Shown here in pieces: positions 15,120 through 59,312 of a stretch of DNA of 64,000 bases (positions within the stretch are counted from its first letter, which is position 1; each line of letters starts with the position of its first letter). Position numbers and translations under genes: made by a program. This stretch comes from Flavobacteriaceae bacterium (GTDB lineage Bacteria > Bacteroidota > Bacteroidia > Flavobacteriales > Flavobacteriaceae), in assembly GCA_003564185.1 (NCBI GenBank), contig PXFS01000139.1, positions 1 through 64,000 of the forward strand, given 5' to 3'. The notes beneath the pieces are model-generated. The model saw nothing but the letters and a program-made list of their open reading frames with translations. It made no database searches and was not told the DNA's origin.

Positions 15120-16505
15120 ATGGGTTACAATTATCAAAAATTACTAAATCATCAAATTAGTTTTTTTAATCAAGGGCGTTGGGATGATGTGTATTATCGA
15201 ATTTCACTATTGAAAAAATTGAAATTGGTAATAGAACAACATGAGGACGAAATAATTGATGCCTTAGGTAAAGATTTGAAAAAACCTCCTGTTGAAGCCT
15301 ATTCAACTGAATTACTGGTAGTTTACAAAGAACTAAATAAATTTATTAGAAGAATAAAATCTTGGCAAAAACCAAGGCTCAAGCTTCCAAGCCTTATCAA
15401 CTTTCCATCGGTAGATTATATTCATCATAAACCTTGGGGACAAGTCTTAGTTATTAGTCCTTGGAATTATCCATTTCAATTAGCTATTAATCCACTTATA
15501 GCCGCAATAGCTTGTGGGAATACGGTTGTTTTAAAACCTTCAGAGTTAAGTCCAAACACCAGTAAAATTATTCAAAAAATCATTCATCAATGTTTTTCAA
15601 AAGAAATTGCGGAAGTTTGTCTTGGAGACGCTGATGTAGCTAGTCAGCTACTAGAATTAAAATGGAATTACATATTTTTTACAGGAAGTGTTGCCGTTGG
15701 TAAAATAGTTGCAGAGGCTGCTGCTAAAAACCTAACACCTGTAACTTTAGAGCTAGGAGGTAAAAACCCTTGTATAGTTGATACTTCAGCTAAATTAGAT
15801 GTTACTGCAAAACGAATTGCTTGGGGTAAATTTATTAATGCTGGACAAACTTGTATAGCACCAGATTATATTCTGGTTCATGAGAGCATTAAAAATCAAT
15901 TGACCGAAAAGATAATTTCAGAGATAAGAAATTTCTATGGAGACCAGCCTAAGGAAAGTTCAGATTTAGCTCGAATAATCAATAAAAAGCATTTTCAACG
16001 CTTGATAAAGCTATTTCAAAATCAGAAAGAATTAAGGTATGGTGGAAAATATGCTGAAGATGAGCTGTATATAAGTCCAACAATTCTTATTGATCCAGAG
16101 CTGGATGATGAGGTAATGCAAGATGAAATATTTGGCCCTATACTCCCTATACTATCCTACACTAATGATAATGAATTACATTATGTTTTAGATCAACATA
16201 ACCCCCCCCTTTCTTTATATATATTTACTGAAAACAGGTATTTTGCTAAAAAAATACTATCTAAATATCAATTTGGAGGAGCTGTAATAAATGATACTAT
16301 TGTTCACTTTATCAACGATAGGTTACCCTTTGGAGGAGTTGGAACCTCCGGAATTGGAAGTTATCATGGCAAACATTCATTTTCTACCTTTACTCGAAAA
16401 ACTAGTATTGTTGATCGAAAAACTTGGTTGGACGTAGAAGTAAAATATCCTCCCTATGCAGGCAAATTGGATCTACTAAAAAAAATTAAAAATTGGATAA
16501 CCTAA
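15120..16505 (+). CDS. Aldehyde dehydrogenase (NAD(P)+), class-3-like
   Basis: 461 aa; PWNYPFQLAINPLIAAIACGNTVVLKPSE, FFTGSVAVGKIV, LELGGKNPCIVD, NAGQTCIAPDY, FGPILPI. Confidence 0.94.
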   Translation: MGYNYQKLLNHQISFFNQGRWDDVYYRISLLKKLKLVIEQHEDEIIDALGKDLKKPPVEAYSTELLVVYKELNKFIRRIKSWQKPRLKLPSLINFPSVDYIHHKPWGQVLVISPWNYPFQLAINPLIAAIACGNTVVLKPSELSPNTSKIIQKIIHQCFSKEIAEVCLGDADVASQLLELKWNYIFFTGSVAVGKIVAEAAAKNLTPVTLELGGKNPCIVDTSAKLDVTAKRIAWGKFINAGQTCIAPDYILVHESIKNQLTEKIISEIRNFYGDQPKESSDLARIINKKHFQRLIKLFQNQKELRYGGKYAEDELYISPTILIDPELDDEVMQDEIFGPILPILSYTNDNELHYVLDQHNPPLSLYIFTENRYFAKKILSKYQFGGAVINDTIVHFINDRLPFGGVGTSGIGSYHGKHSFSTFTRKTSIVDRKTWLDVEVKYPPYAGKLDLLKKIKNWIT

Positions 16506-35365: not shown

Positions 35366-38300
35366 ATGTATAAGAAGCCAATCTTATTTGTTTTTTTGTT
35401 GTTGTTTTTCAGCAACATAAGTGCTCAAGTTACAAATTTTAATTTATTAGATGACTTTTTAGCACCTCTCAATAACCCAGCTACCATTGAAGGTAGGGTA
35501 TATTTAGACATCAATGGTAATGGAGTTCAAGACCCAAATGAGCCAGGTTTAGAAGATATTTCAATCATTATTATTAATGCAAATAATGTTGGATTTTCAA
35601 CACTTACTGATAGTAATGGGGATTGGTCTTTTGACGTCATGCCTGGGACTACAATTGTTTTTGTTTCAAATAATAGTTTACCTGTTGGTGCCGTACTTAC
35701 ACAAGGAGAAGATCCGTCAACTTTTATGGCCATCGAAGATGAAGTAACACAGGTAACACACTTTGGTTATTTCATCACGGGTTCAATTGAGGGAAGGGTA
35801 TATCTAGACGTAAACGGTAATGGTCAACAGGATTCAGGTGAACCAGGTATTGAAGATGTTGATATTAGCTTAACTGATGAGTTTGGAAATGAGACTATTG
35901 TTTTTACTAACCAAGATGGAGATTGGTCTGCAGAAGATATTGGTACTGGAGAAGTAGTTATAGATATCAATCAAGATGCAGCAACTTTTCCAACTGGAGC
36001 TGTTCAAACTGAAGGGACAGACCCTAAAACTGTAAACTTACAACCTGGAGAAAACCTTAATGTAGGCAATGATGGCTTCTTTGATTTTGGCACCCTTGAG
36101 GGAATTGTTTATCTTGATGAAAACGGAAACGGCACACAAGACCCTGGAGAGCCTGGTATAGCAAACATAAATATCGATATAACAACACCCGATGGAAGTC
36201 CACTCACTACAACAACAGATGCAGATGGAAATTGGAGTATTGATGTGCCTACAGGAAATAATGTTGTAGAAATTGATGAAAGTCAACCCAATTTTCCAGC
36301 TCTAGTAGTTCAAACTGAAGGAACTAATCCAACTACCCAAACCGTAAACACAAATGAGATTATTTTTCAAATTGATGGTTTTGCTGAAGCAGGATTACTA
36401 GATGGTGTAATTTATCTTGACGAAAATGCAAATGGTACACAGGATCCAGGTGAGCCTGGTATAGCTGGTGTAGATATTGAAATCACAGATCTAAATGGTG
36501 ATGTTCAAATTGTTAATTCAGATGCTAATGGAAATTGGGAAGTTCTTGTTTTAGCTGGTGAAGTTACTTCTTTGATAGATGAAGACCATCCAAATTTCCC
36601 CACTAACGCAGTGCAAACAGAAGGAACAAACCCAACAACATCAATTGTAATAGCTGGTGAAACACTATCTGAAGTAGATGGCTTTTTTGTATTAGAAGAA
36701 GATACAGGACAACTCACAGGGAATGTATATGAAGATATTAATGGTAATGGTACCCAAGACCCAGGTGAAGAAGGTATTCCTAATGTTGAAGTAATTGTCA
36801 CCGATAGTAATGGTAATTCCCAAAGTGTAACAACTAATCAGAATGGTCTTTTTTCAGCTATTGTCCCCGAAGGAGAAACCAATTATTTAATTAACGAGAA
36901 TGATCCAAATTTCCCGACAGGTGCCATCCAAACAGAAGGGACAAATCCTACTCAAATTTTTGTAGATGCGGATACCACCACATTTGGTGGTAATAATGGT
37001 TATTTTATTCCTGATGAAGATGTTGTAGGACAGTTATTTGCCCATCTCTATTTTGATCTCAATGGTAATGGCACACAAGACCCTGACGAACCCGATATGC
37101 CTAATGTTGAAGTTTTAATCACAGACACCTTTGGCAACCAACAAACAGTAGAAACAGATGCTAATGGAGATTTCTTTGTTGAAGTTCCTGCTGGAATTAA
37201 TGTTTATGAAATAAACGAAAATGATCCTGACTTCCCTACCGGTGCCATTCAAACTGAGGGAACTAATCCTACTGAAGTATTTGTTGCTTCTGGTTCAGAT
37301 ACATTCGGTGGTAATAATGGTTTTTTTGAACCCGATGAAGGATTAACTGGTCTGTTATTTGCTCATCTCTATTTTGACTTAAACGGAAATGGAACACAAG
37401 ACCCTGGTGAACCTGATATGCCAGATGTAGAAGTACTTATTACAGACACCTTTGGAAATCAACAAACCGTAGAAACAGATGCTAACGGTAACTTCTCTGT
37501 GGAAGTTCCTGCTGGAATAAATGTATATGAAATTAACGAAGAAGATTCTGATTTTCCAACAGGAGCAATACAAACAGAAGGAACTAACCCAACAGAAGTT
37601 TTTGTAGCAGTTGATTCAAATACTTTTGGTGGTAACAATGGATTTTTTGAACCTGATGAAGGATTAACTGGTCTGTTATTTGCCCATCTCTATTTTGACG
37701 TTAACGGAAACGGAACACAAGATGCTGACGAACCTGATATGCCTGATGTAGAGGTACTTATAACTGATACTTTTGGCAACCAACAAACCGTTGAAACAGA
37801 TGCTAATGGAAACTTTTCTGTAGAGGTTCCTGCAGGAATAAATGTTTATGAAATCAATGAAGAAGACCCCGACTTCCCTACTGGAGCCATTCAAACAGAA
37901 GGAACCAATCCTACTGAGGTTTTTGTAGCAGTTGATTCGGATACCTTTGGTGGGAATAATGGATTTTTTGTTCCTGACGAAAATTTGACTGGTCAGCTAT
38001 TTGCTCATCTATATTTTGATTTGAATGGAAATGGTACGCAAGATGCAAATGAACCAGATATGCCAAATGTTGAGGTGCTTATAACAGATACTTTTGGTAA
38101 TCAACAGTCTGTAGATACAGATGCTAATGGAAATTTTTCAGTTGAAGTTCCTGCTGGAATAAATGTCTATGAGATCAATGAAAATGACCCTGACTTCCCT
38201 ACTGGCGCACTCCAAACTGAGGGAAGTAATCCAACTGAAGTATTTGTTCCGGCTGGTTCAAATACATTTGGTGGAAATAATGGTTTTTTTGATGTAGAAG

Positions 38301-39589
38301 ATTCTGATGAATTTGGAGGTCTAACAGGTCTAGTGTATTTAGATGAAAATGCAAATGGAAACTTTGATGAAGATGAAGAAGGTATTCCAAACATTAATAT
38401 CATAATAACAAACTCAGAAGGGAATAATCAAACGGTAACAACTAATGCTAATGGAATTTTTAGTGCTGTAGTTATAGAAGGTGAAACTTCAATCTTGATT
38501 GATGAAAATGATCCCGACTTCCCTACTGGTGCTATTCAAACAGAAGGTACTAATCCTATAAATACAATAGTTACTATAGGAGAAACCACAGAAGTTGGTG
38601 ATAGCGGTTATTTTGTTCCAGACGAAAATATTGAAGGGATTTTAACTGCTCGGGTGTACTTAGATAGTAACGGCAACGGCACTCAAGACAATGATGAGCT
38701 TGGTATTGAAAACATAGAGATCATTATCACCGATGTATTTGCCAATGAACAGATTGTTTTTACGGATGAAAATGGGGATTTTGATGCTATAGTTCCCGCA
38801 GGCCCCACTTCATATTTAATTAATGAAGAAGATATTGATTTCCCTGAAAATGCCATACAAACAGAAGGTGAAAATCCTTCTATAGACATATTAGTTGTTG
38901 CTAATGAAATAACCGATGATGGAGGAAACGGATTTTTTGTGCCAGATGAGGACGTAATTGGTACCCTAATTGGTAAAGTTTATTTTGATGCCAATAATAA
39001 CGGTGAACTTGATGAGGATGAAATAGGCATCCCAAACGTTGAAATTGAAGTTACTGATGCTTTTGAAGAAATTCTGTTTATAACAACTGATGAGAATGGT
39101 GATTTTGAAGTAGCAACCACAGCTGGATTAACCACAATTTTTATTGATGAAACCCAAGAAAACCTTCCTGAAGGAGCTATTTTAACCGAGGGCATCATAC
39201 CAGACACACGTTTAGTGACTCCAGAATCGACAACAAATTTTGGCAACTTTGGATATTTTGCTGAAATAGATGAAGAGGTGGAAGACGATGGATTAGAAAT
39301 TTTTAATGCTGTACATCCAAATGGAGATGGAAGAAATGATTTCTTCAGAATTGAAGGCATTGAAAACTTTCCAAGTAACAATCTTAAAATTTTTAATCGC
39401 TCTGGAATAAAAGTTTTTGATGTTAATAATTATGGAATAAGCGGAAATCTCTTTGTTGGCATTAGTGAAGGTAGAATAACTATCCAGAAAAACAAGCAAC
39501 TACCCGCTGGAACTTATTTTTATTTGTTTGAATATCGGGACAACGACGGAAGTAGAAAAAAGAAACAAGGGTATCTTTATTTAAAGTAA
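35366..39589 (+). CDS. Large acidic SdrD B-like repeat protein with T9SS type B (gliding-motility-associated) C-terminal domain
   Basis: 1407 aa; signal peptide; 12 copies of a ~105-aa unit starting (V/L)Y(L/F)D.NGNGTQDPGEPGI; C-terminal IFNAVHPNGDGRNDFFRIEGIENFPSNNLKIFNRSGIKVF...AGTYFYLFEY..GYLYLK matches the type B CTD pattern. Confidence 0.92.
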   Translation: MYKKPILFVFLLLFFSNISAQVTNFNLLDDFLAPLNNPATIEGRVYLDINGNGVQDPNEPGLEDISIIIINANNVGFSTLTDSNGDWSFDVMPGTTIVFVSNNSLPVGAVLTQGEDPSTFMAIEDEVTQVTHFGYFITGSIEGRVYLDVNGNGQQDSGEPGIEDVDISLTDEFGNETIVFTNQDGDWSAEDIGTGEVVIDINQDAATFPTGAVQTEGTDPKTVNLQPGENLNVGNDGFFDFGTLEGIVYLDENGNGTQDPGEPGIANINIDITTPDGSPLTTTTDADGNWSIDVPTGNNVVEIDESQPNFPALVVQTEGTNPTTQTVNTNEIIFQIDGFAEAGLLDGVIYLDENANGTQDPGEPGIAGVDIEITDLNGDVQIVNSDANGNWEVLVLAGEVTSLIDEDHPNFPTNAVQTEGTNPTTSIVIAGETLSEVDGFFVLEEDTGQLTGNVYEDINGNGTQDPGEEGIPNVEVIVTDSNGNSQSVTTNQNGLFSAIVPEGETNYLINENDPNFPTGAIQTEGTNPTQIFVDADTTTFGGNNGYFIPDEDVVGQLFAHLYFDLNGNGTQDPDEPDMPNVEVLITDTFGNQQTVETDANGDFFVEVPAGINVYEINENDPDFPTGAIQTEGTNPTEVFVASGSDTFGGNNGFFEPDEGLTGLLFAHLYFDLNGNGTQDPGEPDMPDVEVLITDTFGNQQTVETDANGNFSVEVPAGINVYEINEEDSDFPTGAIQTEGTNPTEVFVAVDSNTFGGNNGFFEPDEGLTGLLFAHLYFDVNGNGTQDADEPDMPDVEVLITDTFGNQQTVETDANGNFSVEVPAGINVYEINEEDPDFPTGAIQTEGTNPTEVFVAVDSDTFGGNNGFFVPDENLTGQLFAHLYFDLNGNGTQDANEPDMPNVEVLITDTFGNQQSVDTDANGNFSVEVPAGINVYEINENDPDFPTGALQTEGSNPTEVFVPAGSNTFGGNNGFFDVEDSDEFGGLTGLVYLDENANGNFDEDEEGIPNINIIITNSEGNNQTVTTNANGIFSAVVIEGETSILIDENDPDFPTGAIQTEGTNPINTIVTIGETTEVGDSGYFVPDENIEGILTARVYLDSNGNGTQDNDELGIENIEIIITDVFANEQIVFTDENGDFDAIVPAGPTSYLINEEDIDFPENAIQTEGENPSIDILVVANEITDDGGNGFFVPDEDVIGTLIGKVYFDANNNGELDEDEIGIPNVEIEVTDAFEEILFITTDENGDFEVATTAGLTTIFIDETQENLPEGAILTEGIIPDTRLVTPESTTNFGNFGYFAEIDEEVEDDGLEIFNAVHPNGDGRNDFFRIEGIENFPSNNLKIFNRSGIKVFDVNNYGISGNLFVGISEGRITIQKNKQLPAGTYFYLFEYRDNDGSRKKKQGYLYLK
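37034..38317 (+). repeat. Four consecutive 321-bp in-frame tandem repeat units (107 aa) inside the adhesin-like gene
   Basis: LFAHLYFD anchor codons begin at 37034, 37355, 37676 and 37997 (exactly 321 bp apart); encoded units almost identical. Confidence 0.9.
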
Positions 39590-54020: not shown

Positions 54021-55482
54021 TTAAAAACTGTAAATTAATCCAAGTCCAGCCTCAAATCTTGAAAAGCTTTCAGATTCATCAAGTTCTAGAGTAATTTGGG
54101 TTGAACCATCATTTACCCGATAGCTATTGTTTTGAGCTACAATATAACCTATATTAAAATTAAGGTAAAAATTACTAACTATATAAACATCATAACTTTT
54201 ACGAAAATTGAAACCTAAGACATCTGATCTAAATTCTAACCTGTTAAATTCTGATTCAATATTATCATATACACTTAAAAGTCCGGCTCCAGCTGTCGCA
54301 ATGATTTGATTTCTCTTTTTATTACCAAAAAACAATCGATATGAATAATTCAGTCCATAGAACAAAAAATTAATGTCATTTTCTACTTGAATTGATTCTG
54401 TAAACATGTTCAAATTTATTGCTCCTGAAGCAGAAGAAAAGAAACGATTATGGTATAGACCCAAGCCGCTATTTTCATCCCAGAAAAAAGTGGCCTCAAT
54501 ATCAAAATAAGATCCTGAGGATAACTTTTCTACAAGTCTTCTAGTAGATGGTGTTAGGTCTGGAGATATGCTACCAAGTACTGATGAAAAGCCAAAACTT
54601 GATTGCAATCTTAACCAAGTAACTTTAGGACTAACCCTTATAAGATTAAGCTCGTTAAAATCATTTATCTCTCTAAATTTGCTTACTTTTTCTTCTGCTG
54701 TATTTTTTTCGAAGGTATCAGTACCTTCAACTCTATTATTTTCTAATTTTCTTGATTCTTCATTTAAAACATTAGTAGTATCATTTGAAATGGAGTTTAA
54801 GAGTGTATATTCATACTCTAATCTTCCTTGGAGTAGTGAAGGCATTACTTTTAATTCAGGCCGTAGGGATTGCTTATCTACATAAAGCCTAATGTAATAA
54901 TTTTCTCCATTTTGAAATTGTTGATATTGGCCAATGTATTTTTCCACTTCAATTAAAGTTTTACCTTCAGGAACAATTGTACTAAAAGAAGAATCACTTG
55001 GCAATTCAAAACTTTGATCATTCACGTTTAGAGTATAGGATTGGTCTTTGTAAATCTGTTTTTCATCATCAATTCTATATACATATACTTTAGCTCCATC
55101 CTCTAAATTTTCATCAGCACTTCGTTTAGCCTTTATTATATCAGCTTCAACATTAATATAATTCTGCTGTTAGATGTAAACAGTTATCAGAACTTGATTG
55201 TATAGATTTAATTTTAATGATATTAGCTCCTCTAAGCTGAGCTTTTTTTATCATTAATTTAGATTGTCTATCAAAATTACAATTTGGCGTTGAACGTGGG
55301 TCAAATTCAAAAACACCAATAGGAGTTGAATAATCAGGAAATTTTTCTGTTGCAGTAAATATATAAACATCCTCCATAGATGGTTGCTGTTTATTATTTT
55401 TATCCACAAAAGTATTTATAATTGGACTACAAGAGCTGGATAAAATAGCTAATACAACTATCAGTAAGGGGTTATTCTTCAT
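54021..55482 (-). pseudogene. Frameshifted paralog 1: lipoprotein + Cys-pair (RcsF/DUF4156-like) + DUF2846-like + outer-membrane beta-barrel protein
   Basis: ORFs 55153-55482 (109 aa, ends ...TAELY*) and 54021-55025 align consecutively with the intact 494-aa ORF 55524-57008. The intervening sequence reads in the other frame NVEADIIKAKRSADENLEDGAKVYVYRIDDEKQIYKDQSYTLNVNDQSFELP with no stop; shift lies in a ~15-nt window near 55153-55170. Confidence 0.85.
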
Positions 55483-55523: not shown

Positions 55524-57008
55524 TTAAAAATTATAACGTAAGCCAAGCCCAGCTTCAATTCTTGAAAAGTTTTCATCATCATCTAGTTCGAAAGTAAATT
55601 TGTTAAACCCATTGTCAATTCTGTAATTATCATTAATAGCCACTATTAATCCAACATTAAAACCAAGATAAAAATTACCTCCTAAATAGATGTCATAATT
55701 GAGTCTTGTATTAAAAGCAAAAACATCTGATCTAGCTTGAACTCTACCATTTTCAAATCTATTGTCTTCCAAGTAGCTCATTCCTCCAACACCTACTGAA
55801 AAAATTAACTGGTTTTTATCTTTGGAACCAACAAATACTCTATGTGTATAATTTATACCATAATACAAAAACTCTGTACTAGAGTTTACAAACTCATTTG
55901 AGAACAATGCTCCGCCAAACCTTAGGTCTGTTTCAATTAATTCTGATGTTGAAGTGTAAAATCGATTGAAATAAAGGCTTATTCCGTTTTGATTATCGAG
56001 AAAAAAAGAAGCCTCAAAATCAATAAAATATCCTGTCCTAAATGATTCTGAAAGACTTTTTACATCATCAGGTAAATTTGGAGGAACTTGACCTAAACGA
56101 TTTGAAATTCCTCCACTTGAAGAAAGTCTTAACCTATTACTTTGTTCTTCAGCTCTTTCAAAACTAATTTCGCTTATCCTTCTTGTTTTATTGTCTTGCT
56201 GGTCTGAAAATTCTTGATCAGTTCCTTGATTCCTTTTGTCATCTATATCATCATTATTTTGATTTTCTGTTGATTCCATTTTTCTTTCATGTACATATGA
56301 ATCATGAAAAGAGTCATCTAAAAAAGCATATTCATATTCTATTCTTCCTTGCAAGGAGGGCATAATTTTAAAACTAGGTTGTAGGCTTTGTGAATCTACA
56401 TATAATTTTACGTAATAACTTTTACCATTTTCAACCTCTAAATATCTACCCTCTTTAGAATTGTTATCTATTTCAATTAATGCTCTACCTTTTGGGGCTT
56501 CCACACTAACAAATGCATTTCGTTCTACCTTATAACTCTGTTTATTTAACCTTAATGTGTAGGAACTCTTTTTGGCTATCTGTTTTGAATTATCAATACT
56601 ATAAAAATATATCTTCGCGTTATTTTCATTAGCATTAACATCTTTATCTTTACCTTTAAATATTTTTGCATCTTCAAAGTAGTATATTTCAGCTTCTACA
56701 TCAAAACAATTTGCAGAACCTTTTTCTATTGATTTGATTTTAATCAAATTAGCTCCATATTTTTTTGCTTCATCAGTCATTAATTGATATTGCTCTTTAA
56801 AAGTACAATTATTAGTTGATCGTGAATTATAGTTCAAAAGCCCTAAGGGTGTTGCGCCTTCTGGAACTTTCTCTACCATAGTAAATATATATACAGGCTC
56901 TGCAATAGAAGAATGACTTTTATCTTTATCGATAAAAGTAGAAATAGTTGGACTACAAGAACATGCTAAAATAGTAATTACAAAAAATTTTAAGAAGTTG
57001 TTCTTCAT
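55524..57008 (-). CDS. Intact paralog 2: lipoprotein with Cys-pair (RcsF/DUF4156-like) domain, DUF2846-like domain and predicted C-terminal outer-membrane beta-barrel
   Basis: 494 aa; lipobox ILACSC; ATPLG...C-x-F...AKKYGANLIKI...C-x-VEAEIYY; AKIYFYSIDNSKQIAKKSSYTLRL...YYVKLYV; C-terminal barrel-like strands ending GLGLRYNF. Confidence 0.8.
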   Translation of the reverse strand: MKNNFLKFFVITILACSCSPTISTFIDKDKSHSSIAEPVYIFTMVEKVPEGATPLGLLNYNSRSTNNCTFKEQYQLMTDEAKKYGANLIKIKSIEKGSANCFDVEAEIYYFEDAKIFKGKDKDVNANENNAKIYFYSIDNSKQIAKKSSYTLRLNKQSYKVERNAFVSVEAPKGRALIEIDNNSKEGRYLEVENGKSYYVKLYVDSQSLQPSFKIMPSLQGRIEYEYAFLDDSFHDSYVHERKMESTENQNNDDIDDKRNQGTDQEFSDQQDNKTRRISEISFERAEEQSNRLRLSSSGGISNRLGQVPPNLPDDVKSLSESFRTGYFIDFEASFFLDNQNGISLYFNRFYTSTSELIETDLRFGGALFSNEFVNSSTEFLYYGINYTHRVFVGSKDKNQLIFSVGVGGMSYLEDNRFENGRVQARSDVFAFNTRLNYDIYLGGNFYLGFNVGLIVAINDNYRIDNGFNKFTFELDDDENFSRIEAGLGLRYNF

Positions 57009-57019
57009 GATTGAAATTT

Positions 57020-58520
57020 TTAAAAATTATAATTTAATAAAAGACCTAAATTTACCCTATTTAAAGAATCTGGGTCTGGGATATCAAAAGTTCTGCCACT
57101 AAATTCATCTGCTACTTTTACATCTCCTAATCTACCCGTAATGAAACTTATTTGAGCACCTAAAAACCAATTTTTTGAAAATTGATAGGAGTATGAAACA
57201 GAAGCATAAACACCAAAAGTGTTGGTTGATTTTAATAATTCAAAAGATTGATTTTCATTTGAATATGCATCTGTAGTATCATAACTAACATAGCCAGCTC
57301 CAATACCAGAAGTCAATTGGTGCTTTTGGTTTGAAAGTAAATACCTGTTTTGATAACTCAATCCGTAAAAATTAATTTCTTGATTAGAATTTACATTTCC
57401 TGTAAATTCGTTTCCACCAGGTGGGTTTTGTGTAAAAAAATTGCTCGCTGATGAACGAAAAGTATTGGCATGAAAACCTAAGCCATGCATTTCATCAAAA
57501 AACAAAGAAAAATTAAGTTCTAAAAAGTAACCTGAATTTAAATCGCTTATATGATTTCTCAAATCTGAAGGTACCGAAGATGAAACACTTGCTGTTCTAA
57601 AAGCAGCTCCTCCTGAAACACTTATATCAACATCAAGATTCTTAAAAAATTTACTTTTCCTATATTCCTTTTCTTTTTTAGTTCTATTAGATGTATTTAC
57701 ATCTTCTAAGTCAACATAATTTAAACGACTTAAGTGCTTAACATCTTCAGGAGTAAATTCATACAAAAATTGGTTTTTTTTAGCTACATCAAAATCAAAA
57801 GATTCATATTCAATTCTTCCTCTTAAAGAAGACATAAGCTTAATTCTTGGGCAGGTATCACCTATTTCTGAATACAATTTTAAATAATAGACTTTTCCTT
57901 TCTCAAATTTAGTGTAAGCACCATATTTGTCTTCATCTAATATTTCAAAATAATTATTTCCATCGTTTACATTTAATAAACTGATTTTTGATTGCCCTTT
58001 TAACTGTGTTGTATCTCTTCTACTATTATATATGATTTTAAACTCATCCCTATTTCTTGTGGGAATTCCATGACTATATATTTGGACTAAAGCTTTATCA
58101 TCTTCAGCTTCTATAAAACTATCCTTATTTGAGTATTGGTAAGCATTTTCTAAATAATATAATTTGGCTTCTATGAAAAAGCATGTATTGCGCGTAAAAT
58201 AAAAATCATTGATTTTAATAATGTTGGCTCCCTTTAATCTGGCCTCTTTTTTAAATTCTATAAAAAGATCTTTAAAATCACAGCCCCCCCCTTTCTTTTG
58301 GGTTGAAATTTAAACTTCCAACAAATTCTACAGTCTCAGGTAGTTTTTCTGATTGCGTGAAGATTACTACTTTTTCATTTCTATCAAGTTTTTGCATTTC
58401 ATTCGCAGAACTTACAATCAACTTAGGCCCACAGGAAGTGACTAAAAAAAGACAAATGAAATAAATATAAATTTTTTGATTATAAAAAAAATTTTGGATG
58501 ACAGATGGATTAATTTTCAT
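57020..58520 (-). pseudogene. Frameshifted (possibly phase-variable OFF) paralog 3 of the same family
   Basis: N-terminal ORF 58278-58520 ends ...NPKERGGL* at a G8 tract. Removing one G gives NPKERGGCDFKDLFIEFKKEARLKGANIIKINDFYFTRNTCFFIEAKLYYLENAYQ... which stays open into ORF 57020-57877 with no stop. Confidence 0.85.
58284..58291 (-). repeat. G8 (C8 on + strand) homopolymer at the frameshift point of paralog 3
   Basis: cagCCCCCCCCtttc at 58281-; codons AGG GGG GGG CTG TGA. Confidence 0.95.
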
Positions 58521-58622
58521 TTAAAATACGCATTCAAAAGTTGAAGCGGCAATATATTATTTTCTTAACTTCTTAAGAAACTCTTACTAATTTTATTCCG
58601 ACTTTTGAATTTTATAAATCAG

Positions 58623-59312
58623 ATGAGTCAATTAGTTACCCTTAGTATATTTAAATATTCTACATTTAGCTCTAAGCTTTGGGCTTTTGGCATGATGCAG
58701 TTTGCACATACCAGATTAAGAAAAGCAAAGAATTGTACTTTCTACAAATTACTTGGAAGTGGCAAAGATGGTTTTAATCCATTTCCAGATTGGTCAGTTT
58801 ATGGGGTATTACAAGTATGGGAAAACGAAGAGTCTGCTTCGCATTTCATTCATCATAGTAAATTGTTTAAAAAATACTTCAAGCATTCTAACAAGCATAG
58901 CATTTTGTATATGAAAAGCATACAAGCTAAAGGTAAATGGTCTGGAGTTAATCCTTTTCAAAAGCATGAAGTTGATTCAGAAGATCAAAAAATAGCCGTC
59001 ATTACAAGAGCAAGTATAAAATGGAGTAAGTTATTTACTTTCTGGAAATTTGTGCCAGAATCTCAAAAACCATTAAGCAATGCCAAGGGTTTAGTCTACA
59101 CAAAAGGTTTTGGTGAGGTACCATTTAAAGAAATGGCAACATTTAGTATATGGGAAACAAAAGATGATTTATTCAAATTTGCGTATCAAAGTAAAGAACA
59201 TATTGAAGCTATTCAAAAAACAAGGAGTATAAATTGGTACTCAGAGGAAATGTTTAGTCGATTTGCCATAATTAAGATAGTTGGAGAACTTATAAAAAAA
59301 TCGAACAAATAG
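58623..59312 (+). CDS. Spheroidene monooxygenase (CrtA)-like family protein
   Basis: MQFAHTRLRKAKNCTFYKLLGSGKDGFNPFPDWSVYGVLQVWENEESA; GLVYTKGFGEVPFKEMATFSIWE; ATG at 58623. Confidence 0.65.
   Translation: MSQLVTLSIFKYSTFSSKLWAFGMMQFAHTRLRKAKNCTFYKLLGSGKDGFNPFPDWSVYGVLQVWENEESASHFIHHSKLFKKYFKHSNKHSILYMKSIQAKGKWSGVNPFQKHEVDSEDQKIAVITRASIKWSKLFTFWKFVPESQKPLSNAKGLVYTKGFGEVPFKEMATFSIWETKDDLFKFAYQSKEHIEAIQKTRSINWYSEEMFSRFAIIKIVGELIKKSNK

Follow-up and report, generated by a model that had tools for sequence, protein, structure and literature searches.

A frame break at a G8 tract in a predicted surface-protein array of a Psychroflexus-like bacterium: a candidate recent and potentially reversible slippage allele

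Does a gene that loses its reading frame exactly at a run of eight guanines represent a phase-variable switch, or has the tract merely slipped in a gene that the cell can spare? The question is raised by the first member (gene A, 57020-58520, minus strand) of a small array of related genes in a 64-kb window, by which we mean the whole stretch of DNA that was analyzed. Judging from its conserved neighbours, the window comes from a Psychroflexus-like draft genome of a salt-water bacterium, either of Psychroflexus itself or of a very near relative. The closest named relative of a neighbouring glycosyltransferase is found in P. maritimus (70%), where the array is missing beside the glycosyltransferase gene.

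On the minus strand the interrupted region reads ...AACCCAAAAGAAAGGGGGGGGCTGTGATTTT..., the eight Gs occupying 58291-58284, and in the frame of the upstream ORF its codons are AAA GAA AGG GGG GGG CTG TGA. This N-terminal ORF of gene A (58278..58520, 80 aa) encodes a hydrophobic leader resembling a signal peptide, which closes on TSC in a lipobox-like context (LVTSC), and then the start of a first module, before it ends at CTG TGA right after the tract. The remainder of the gene lies in the shifted frame (57020..58294, minus strand; 424 open codons at 57023-58294 plus a stop) and comprises a DUF2846-like middle part and a C-terminal barrel. This second frame is open from 58309 to 57023, or 429 codons from stop to stop. 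Since the two open frames overlap nowhere but at about 58281-58309, the break must have occurred within this short segment, in which the G8 tract (58284..58291, minus strand) is the sole homopolymer longer than four. The residues flanking the tract align without gaps to those of the two paralogues downstream, genes B and C (NPKERGG-C / NSRSTNN-C / DPRSTPN-C).

That 57023-58294 is real coding sequence follows from two observations: none of 2000 shuffles of this segment was fully open, and a protein comparison of the remainder with gene B (residues 64-494) gave 28% identity at E 3.6e-41. The first start codon (ATG, GTG or TTG) of the downstream frame is a TTG at 57877, so that the remainder has neither a start nor a signal peptide of its own. 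The initial annotation had proposed that the lipoprotein ORF stops within the G8 tract and that the shifted frame continues open and colinear with the neighbour at 55524-57008, and on both points the sequence and the alignments agree. The assembly thus does contain a frame break at G8, in a genuine gene whose predicted product is a surface lipoprotein that ends in an outer-membrane barrel. A change in the length of the tract shifts the frame and truncates this product early, while the rest of the gene, with its 424 open codons homologous to gene B, stays intact in the OFF state.

Genes A, B (55524-57008) and C (54021-55482) follow one another head to tail, 11 and 41 bp apart, and probably form one operon. 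Judging from the gene layout, the promoter of the array probably lies in the short intergenic stretch between gene A and a divergent ORF at 58605-59312 (58521..58604), in which a consensus TAnnTTTG box was looked for and not found. Gene B (55524..57008, minus strand, 494 aa) is an intact paralogue, with a lipoprotein module, a DUF2846-like module and an eight-stranded barrel. Gene C is also frame-broken, at about 55150-55160, which the initial annotation had overlooked. Its N-terminal ORF (55153..55482, minus strand, 109 aa) has a lipobox-like SSSC and ends in TAA, its remainder continues in another frame (54021..55160, minus strand; 379 open codons at 54024-55160 plus a stop), and the site of its break is without any homopolymer or short repeat of note. 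Two of the three members of the array are broken, one at a G tract and one elsewhere, and the other long ORFs across the window look uninterrupted. Recombination among the three genes was considered and rejected: as DNA only B and C align (66-69%), and this is too diverged for cassette shuffling.

In the full members of the array, a lipoprotein leader is followed by a first module (~110 residues), then a middle part and finally a C-terminal domain. Residues 128-206 of gene B match Pfam DUF2846 (PF11008) weakly (E 1.9e-4), with a score of 21.9 bits that falls short of the curated (gathering) cut-off of 34.3. In the AlphaFold2 model of gene B (mean pLDDT 72 overall, with most ten-residue blocks of the barrel at 77-93) the C-terminal domain is built as eight strands (residues 293-493) and the protein ends in Phe, so that the model has both the strand number and the aromatic end of an eight-stranded outer-membrane barrel. 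A Foldseek comparison of this domain found OmpW (TMt 0.42-0.68), OmpA (0.36-0.65) and NspA (0.76), with which gene B shares the eight-stranded domain. The likeness is one of predicted fold. Gene B differs from these barrels in having only about 10% sequence identity and in being fused to an N-terminal lipoprotein part of ~230 residues that includes the DUF2846-like module. The array family is therefore predicted to consist of outer-membrane lipoproteins with a beta-barrel and hence of surface products.

Could the two frames of gene A be two proteins by nature? In other Flavobacteriaceae these modules are found as a 131-aa lipoprotein that stands alone, as a shorter fusion, or as a lipoprotein plus DUF2846-like gene adjoining a separate barrel gene with a signal peptide, and the last arrangement (L114, L115 and L119) would be a precedent for a gene that is naturally split into a lipoprotein part and a barrel part. 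In those relatives, however, every barrel gene comes with a signal peptide of its own and whole modules lie on either side of the split, whereas the break in gene A, at residue 78, cuts through module 1, where no natural module boundary of the relatives lies, and leaves a downstream piece that lacks a start and a signal peptide. The domain boundaries of the relatives rule out a two-gene split as far as we can judge, and it is the least probable reading considered here. Hardly more probable is recoding, in which some full-length product would still be made from gene A because the ribosome shifts frame, or transcription slips, on the G tract. The order AGGGGG, three-base spacer, CTG and TGA has what we take to be a superficial likeness to the layout of the prfB frameshift site, and the CTG directly before the TGA is a rare codon (3.7% of Leu codons). 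But no stable RNA structure follows the site (z 0.54), an Rfam search of it gave no match, it is common to no paralogue or relative, and a Leu tRNA on CTG would, by our reasoning, re-pair poorly one base on.

A sequencing, assembly or strain-consensus error, by which the tract and the break of gene C would both be mis-called and gene A would be intact, deserves more weight but is still improbable. The draft is fragmented (173 contigs, 90% complete) and contains one foreign-looking contig, mistakes of this kind fall at homopolymers, and two of the three array genes are hit, the only broken genes noticed in the window. Against this stand 77 other homopolymers of at least 7 bases in ORFs of the window, none of which is at a frame break; they include A/T tracts of eight and nine bases and a further G8 within an intact gene. 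Furthermore, where contig composition is native, each of the other four G8 tracts lies in an intact frame, and the break in gene C is away from any homopolymer. The 77 tracts also disfavour a general homopolymer error in the assembly.

If the break is genuine, it appears to be young. Of all single-base substitutions in what remains of gene A, 7.8% would create a stop, and because no such stop is present, the number of substitutions since the break is bounded at roughly 38, i.e., <3% of sites (95%; the calculation ignores indels). GC contents at the three codon positions of the broken parts (0.37/0.33/0.18 and 0.41/0.32/0.19) resemble those of the intact gene B (0.39/0.32/0.18). The breaks in A and C are recent, or reversible, or not real.

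The initial annotation had regarded the G tract as the "classical signature" of ON/OFF switching, and this reading holds up in part, as the break lies at the tract, the remainder is intact, the family is predicted to be at the surface and slippage is the simplest cause. Less favourable is the background against which such tracts occur. A tract of eight Gs is not rare in itself: this genome has six, and no longer G tract. Two are in the window, where 10 of 100 shuffled versions reach the same number of G7 matches. One of the six is on the foreign-looking contig, and the other four outside gene A are all in intact genes, encoding an aldehyde dehydrogenase (16202-16209), a phosphoglucosamine-mutase-like, an esterase-like and a sensor-like protein. 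The foreign-looking contig (C45; L010, G000:C45) clearly differs in composition, has a high GC content, carries NRPS-like and TonB-receptor-like ORFs and is probably a contamination.

Every G/C tract of at least 8 bases was then located in 27 Psychroflexus genomes and classified by the open frames around it on both strands, a frame break being called where 50 codons or more lay on either side and the gain was likewise 50 codons or more. Of 58 tracts, 36 lie in uninterrupted frames (under these automatic ORF rules a few, e.g., L171, L157 and L172, may sit in chance ORFs), 20 are intergenic or at ORF edges and 2 are at frame breaks. In other words, 36 of the 38 intragenic tracts are in frame, some of them in essential genes; an LpxB-type gene (lpxB) contains a G9, for example, and a prohibitin-like gene a G10. 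Because most intragenic G8-G10 tracts are in frame, G8 by itself is no signature of phase variation in Psychroflexus. Tracts that toggle freely are expected to be out of frame in about two thirds of cases. The in-frame excess in housekeeping genes is explained by selection for function, which argues against the tract as a diagnostic and not against slippage as such. The only frame-break tract besides that of gene A belongs to another Psychroflexus species, whose secreted SBBP-like beta-propeller gene (L141; G020:C62, 443-937 and 3-512, minus strand) is again broken exactly at the tract, a G9, and this case keeps the phase-variation reading alive.

How readily would a tract of eight slip? According to published classes, tracts of 6G-8G are mutable (1e-7 to 1e-5 per division) and those of >7G hypermutable (PMC4235727, Table 1), which places G8 at the border of the two and at the lower limit of hypermutability. 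An evolved contingency locus, in which the G8 slips often and toggles gene A, perhaps together with the array by polarity, is thus a reading to be weighed, with the resulting surface diversity possibly serving against phage or grazers. A mutable tract within the published ranges, close to the start codon of a surface-protein gene with a predicted outer-membrane barrel fold and followed by 423 clean codons, gives gene A the look of such a locus too, and the secreted protein of L141 broken at G9 adds to it. Opposed to it are the length of the tract (only 8), the broken sibling C without a repeat, the 36 of 38 tracts in frame, and the paralogues: B, C and five family genes of another Psychroflexus genome (G014) contain no G tract, and among homologues of gene A the tract is neither conserved nor enriched beyond the genome background. 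With one genome per species, nothing in this genome establishes that gene A was selected as a switch. An ordinary slippage mutation in a spare gene copy accounts for the evidence no less well. We therefore regard a contingency locus as possible but the weaker account, and its more specific form, a poly-G locus of a free-living flavobacterium that toggles the first gene and the downstream paralogues by polarity, as somewhat more doubtful still.

With the poly-G/poly-C loci of Campylobacter, Helicobacter and Neisseria the gene A locus shares a G tract of mutable length in a surface-related coding sequence and early truncation of the protein by a one-base change in length. It differs from them in that its tract is only 8 long and known from one genome, its sibling is broken without a repeat, and G8+ tracts of the genus are mostly in frame. 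Moreover, no precedent was found for the gene A family or for Psychroflexus, and a search of the literature for Psychroflexus phase variation or Flavobacteriaceae poly-G switching turned up no paper.

Slippage in the G8 tract best explains the break in gene A, and because the sibling is broken, the tract is short, the paralogues lack it and many G8+ tracts are in frame, we favour incidental slippage over a contingency locus. The reading that we prefer, at about even chance, is that of a recent and potentially reversible OFF allele in a dispensable surface-protein array. Replication slippage would have changed the length of the tract at about codons 76-78 of gene A and produced an OFF allele in the sequenced population, in which translation would end at residue 80 and could yield no more than a lipoprotein stub. 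The event would be recent, given 423 remaining codons without a second lesion, and as the tract would still be slippery, it could in principle revert. Through polarity, premature termination in gene A could reduce the expression of B and C as well. The array as a whole may be dispensable or redundant, considering that gene C was lost independently through a frame change at a non-repeat site, which points to relaxed selection.

If gene A does toggle, environmental flavobacteria would share with mucosal bacteria a homopolymer-based switching of the surface that might serve against phages or grazers, and together with L141 this would mean that slipped-strand surface phase variation operates in the marine and saline genus Psychroflexus. 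If it does not, the locus calls for caution, since G8-G10 tracts are common inside intact genes of Psychroflexus and a G tract at a frame break should not by itself be called phase variation.

The fused lipoprotein-barrel family was detected in 2 of the 27 Psychroflexus genomes, namely the one studied here (G000) and G014, which has at least five intact copies. As the family is missing from 24 of the 27 and in a further genome (G007) only the N-terminal module is matched, and that weakly, the array is accessory. Neither an orthologue of gene A among the genome contigs searched nor another record of its locus was found. A mobile origin was considered and set aside, gene B having no plasmid match and no viral contig carrying the flank of the tract. 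In G014 and in two genomes of another genus (L007, L126 and L140) members of the family adjoin a lipoamide dehydrogenase gene, which suggests that this neighbourhood is the ancestral location of the lipoprotein-barrel family.

Elsewhere in the window, a gene on the plus strand (35366-39589) encodes a secreted protein of 1407 aa with many near-identical SdrD-like repeats (YLDxNGNGTQDPGEP...), and is followed by PorP/SprF-like and OmpA-like genes. Longer tracts of G10-G14 were seen between genes or at ORF starts in other Psychroflexus genomes (L192 (1495), L171 (1497), L174 (1497), L179 (1502) and L016 (1501)). In two of these, L016 and L179, a member of one T9SS-tailed family (YESIFGEESTRMQL...) follows 150-250 bp downstream of the tract, so that variation in promoter length is possible.
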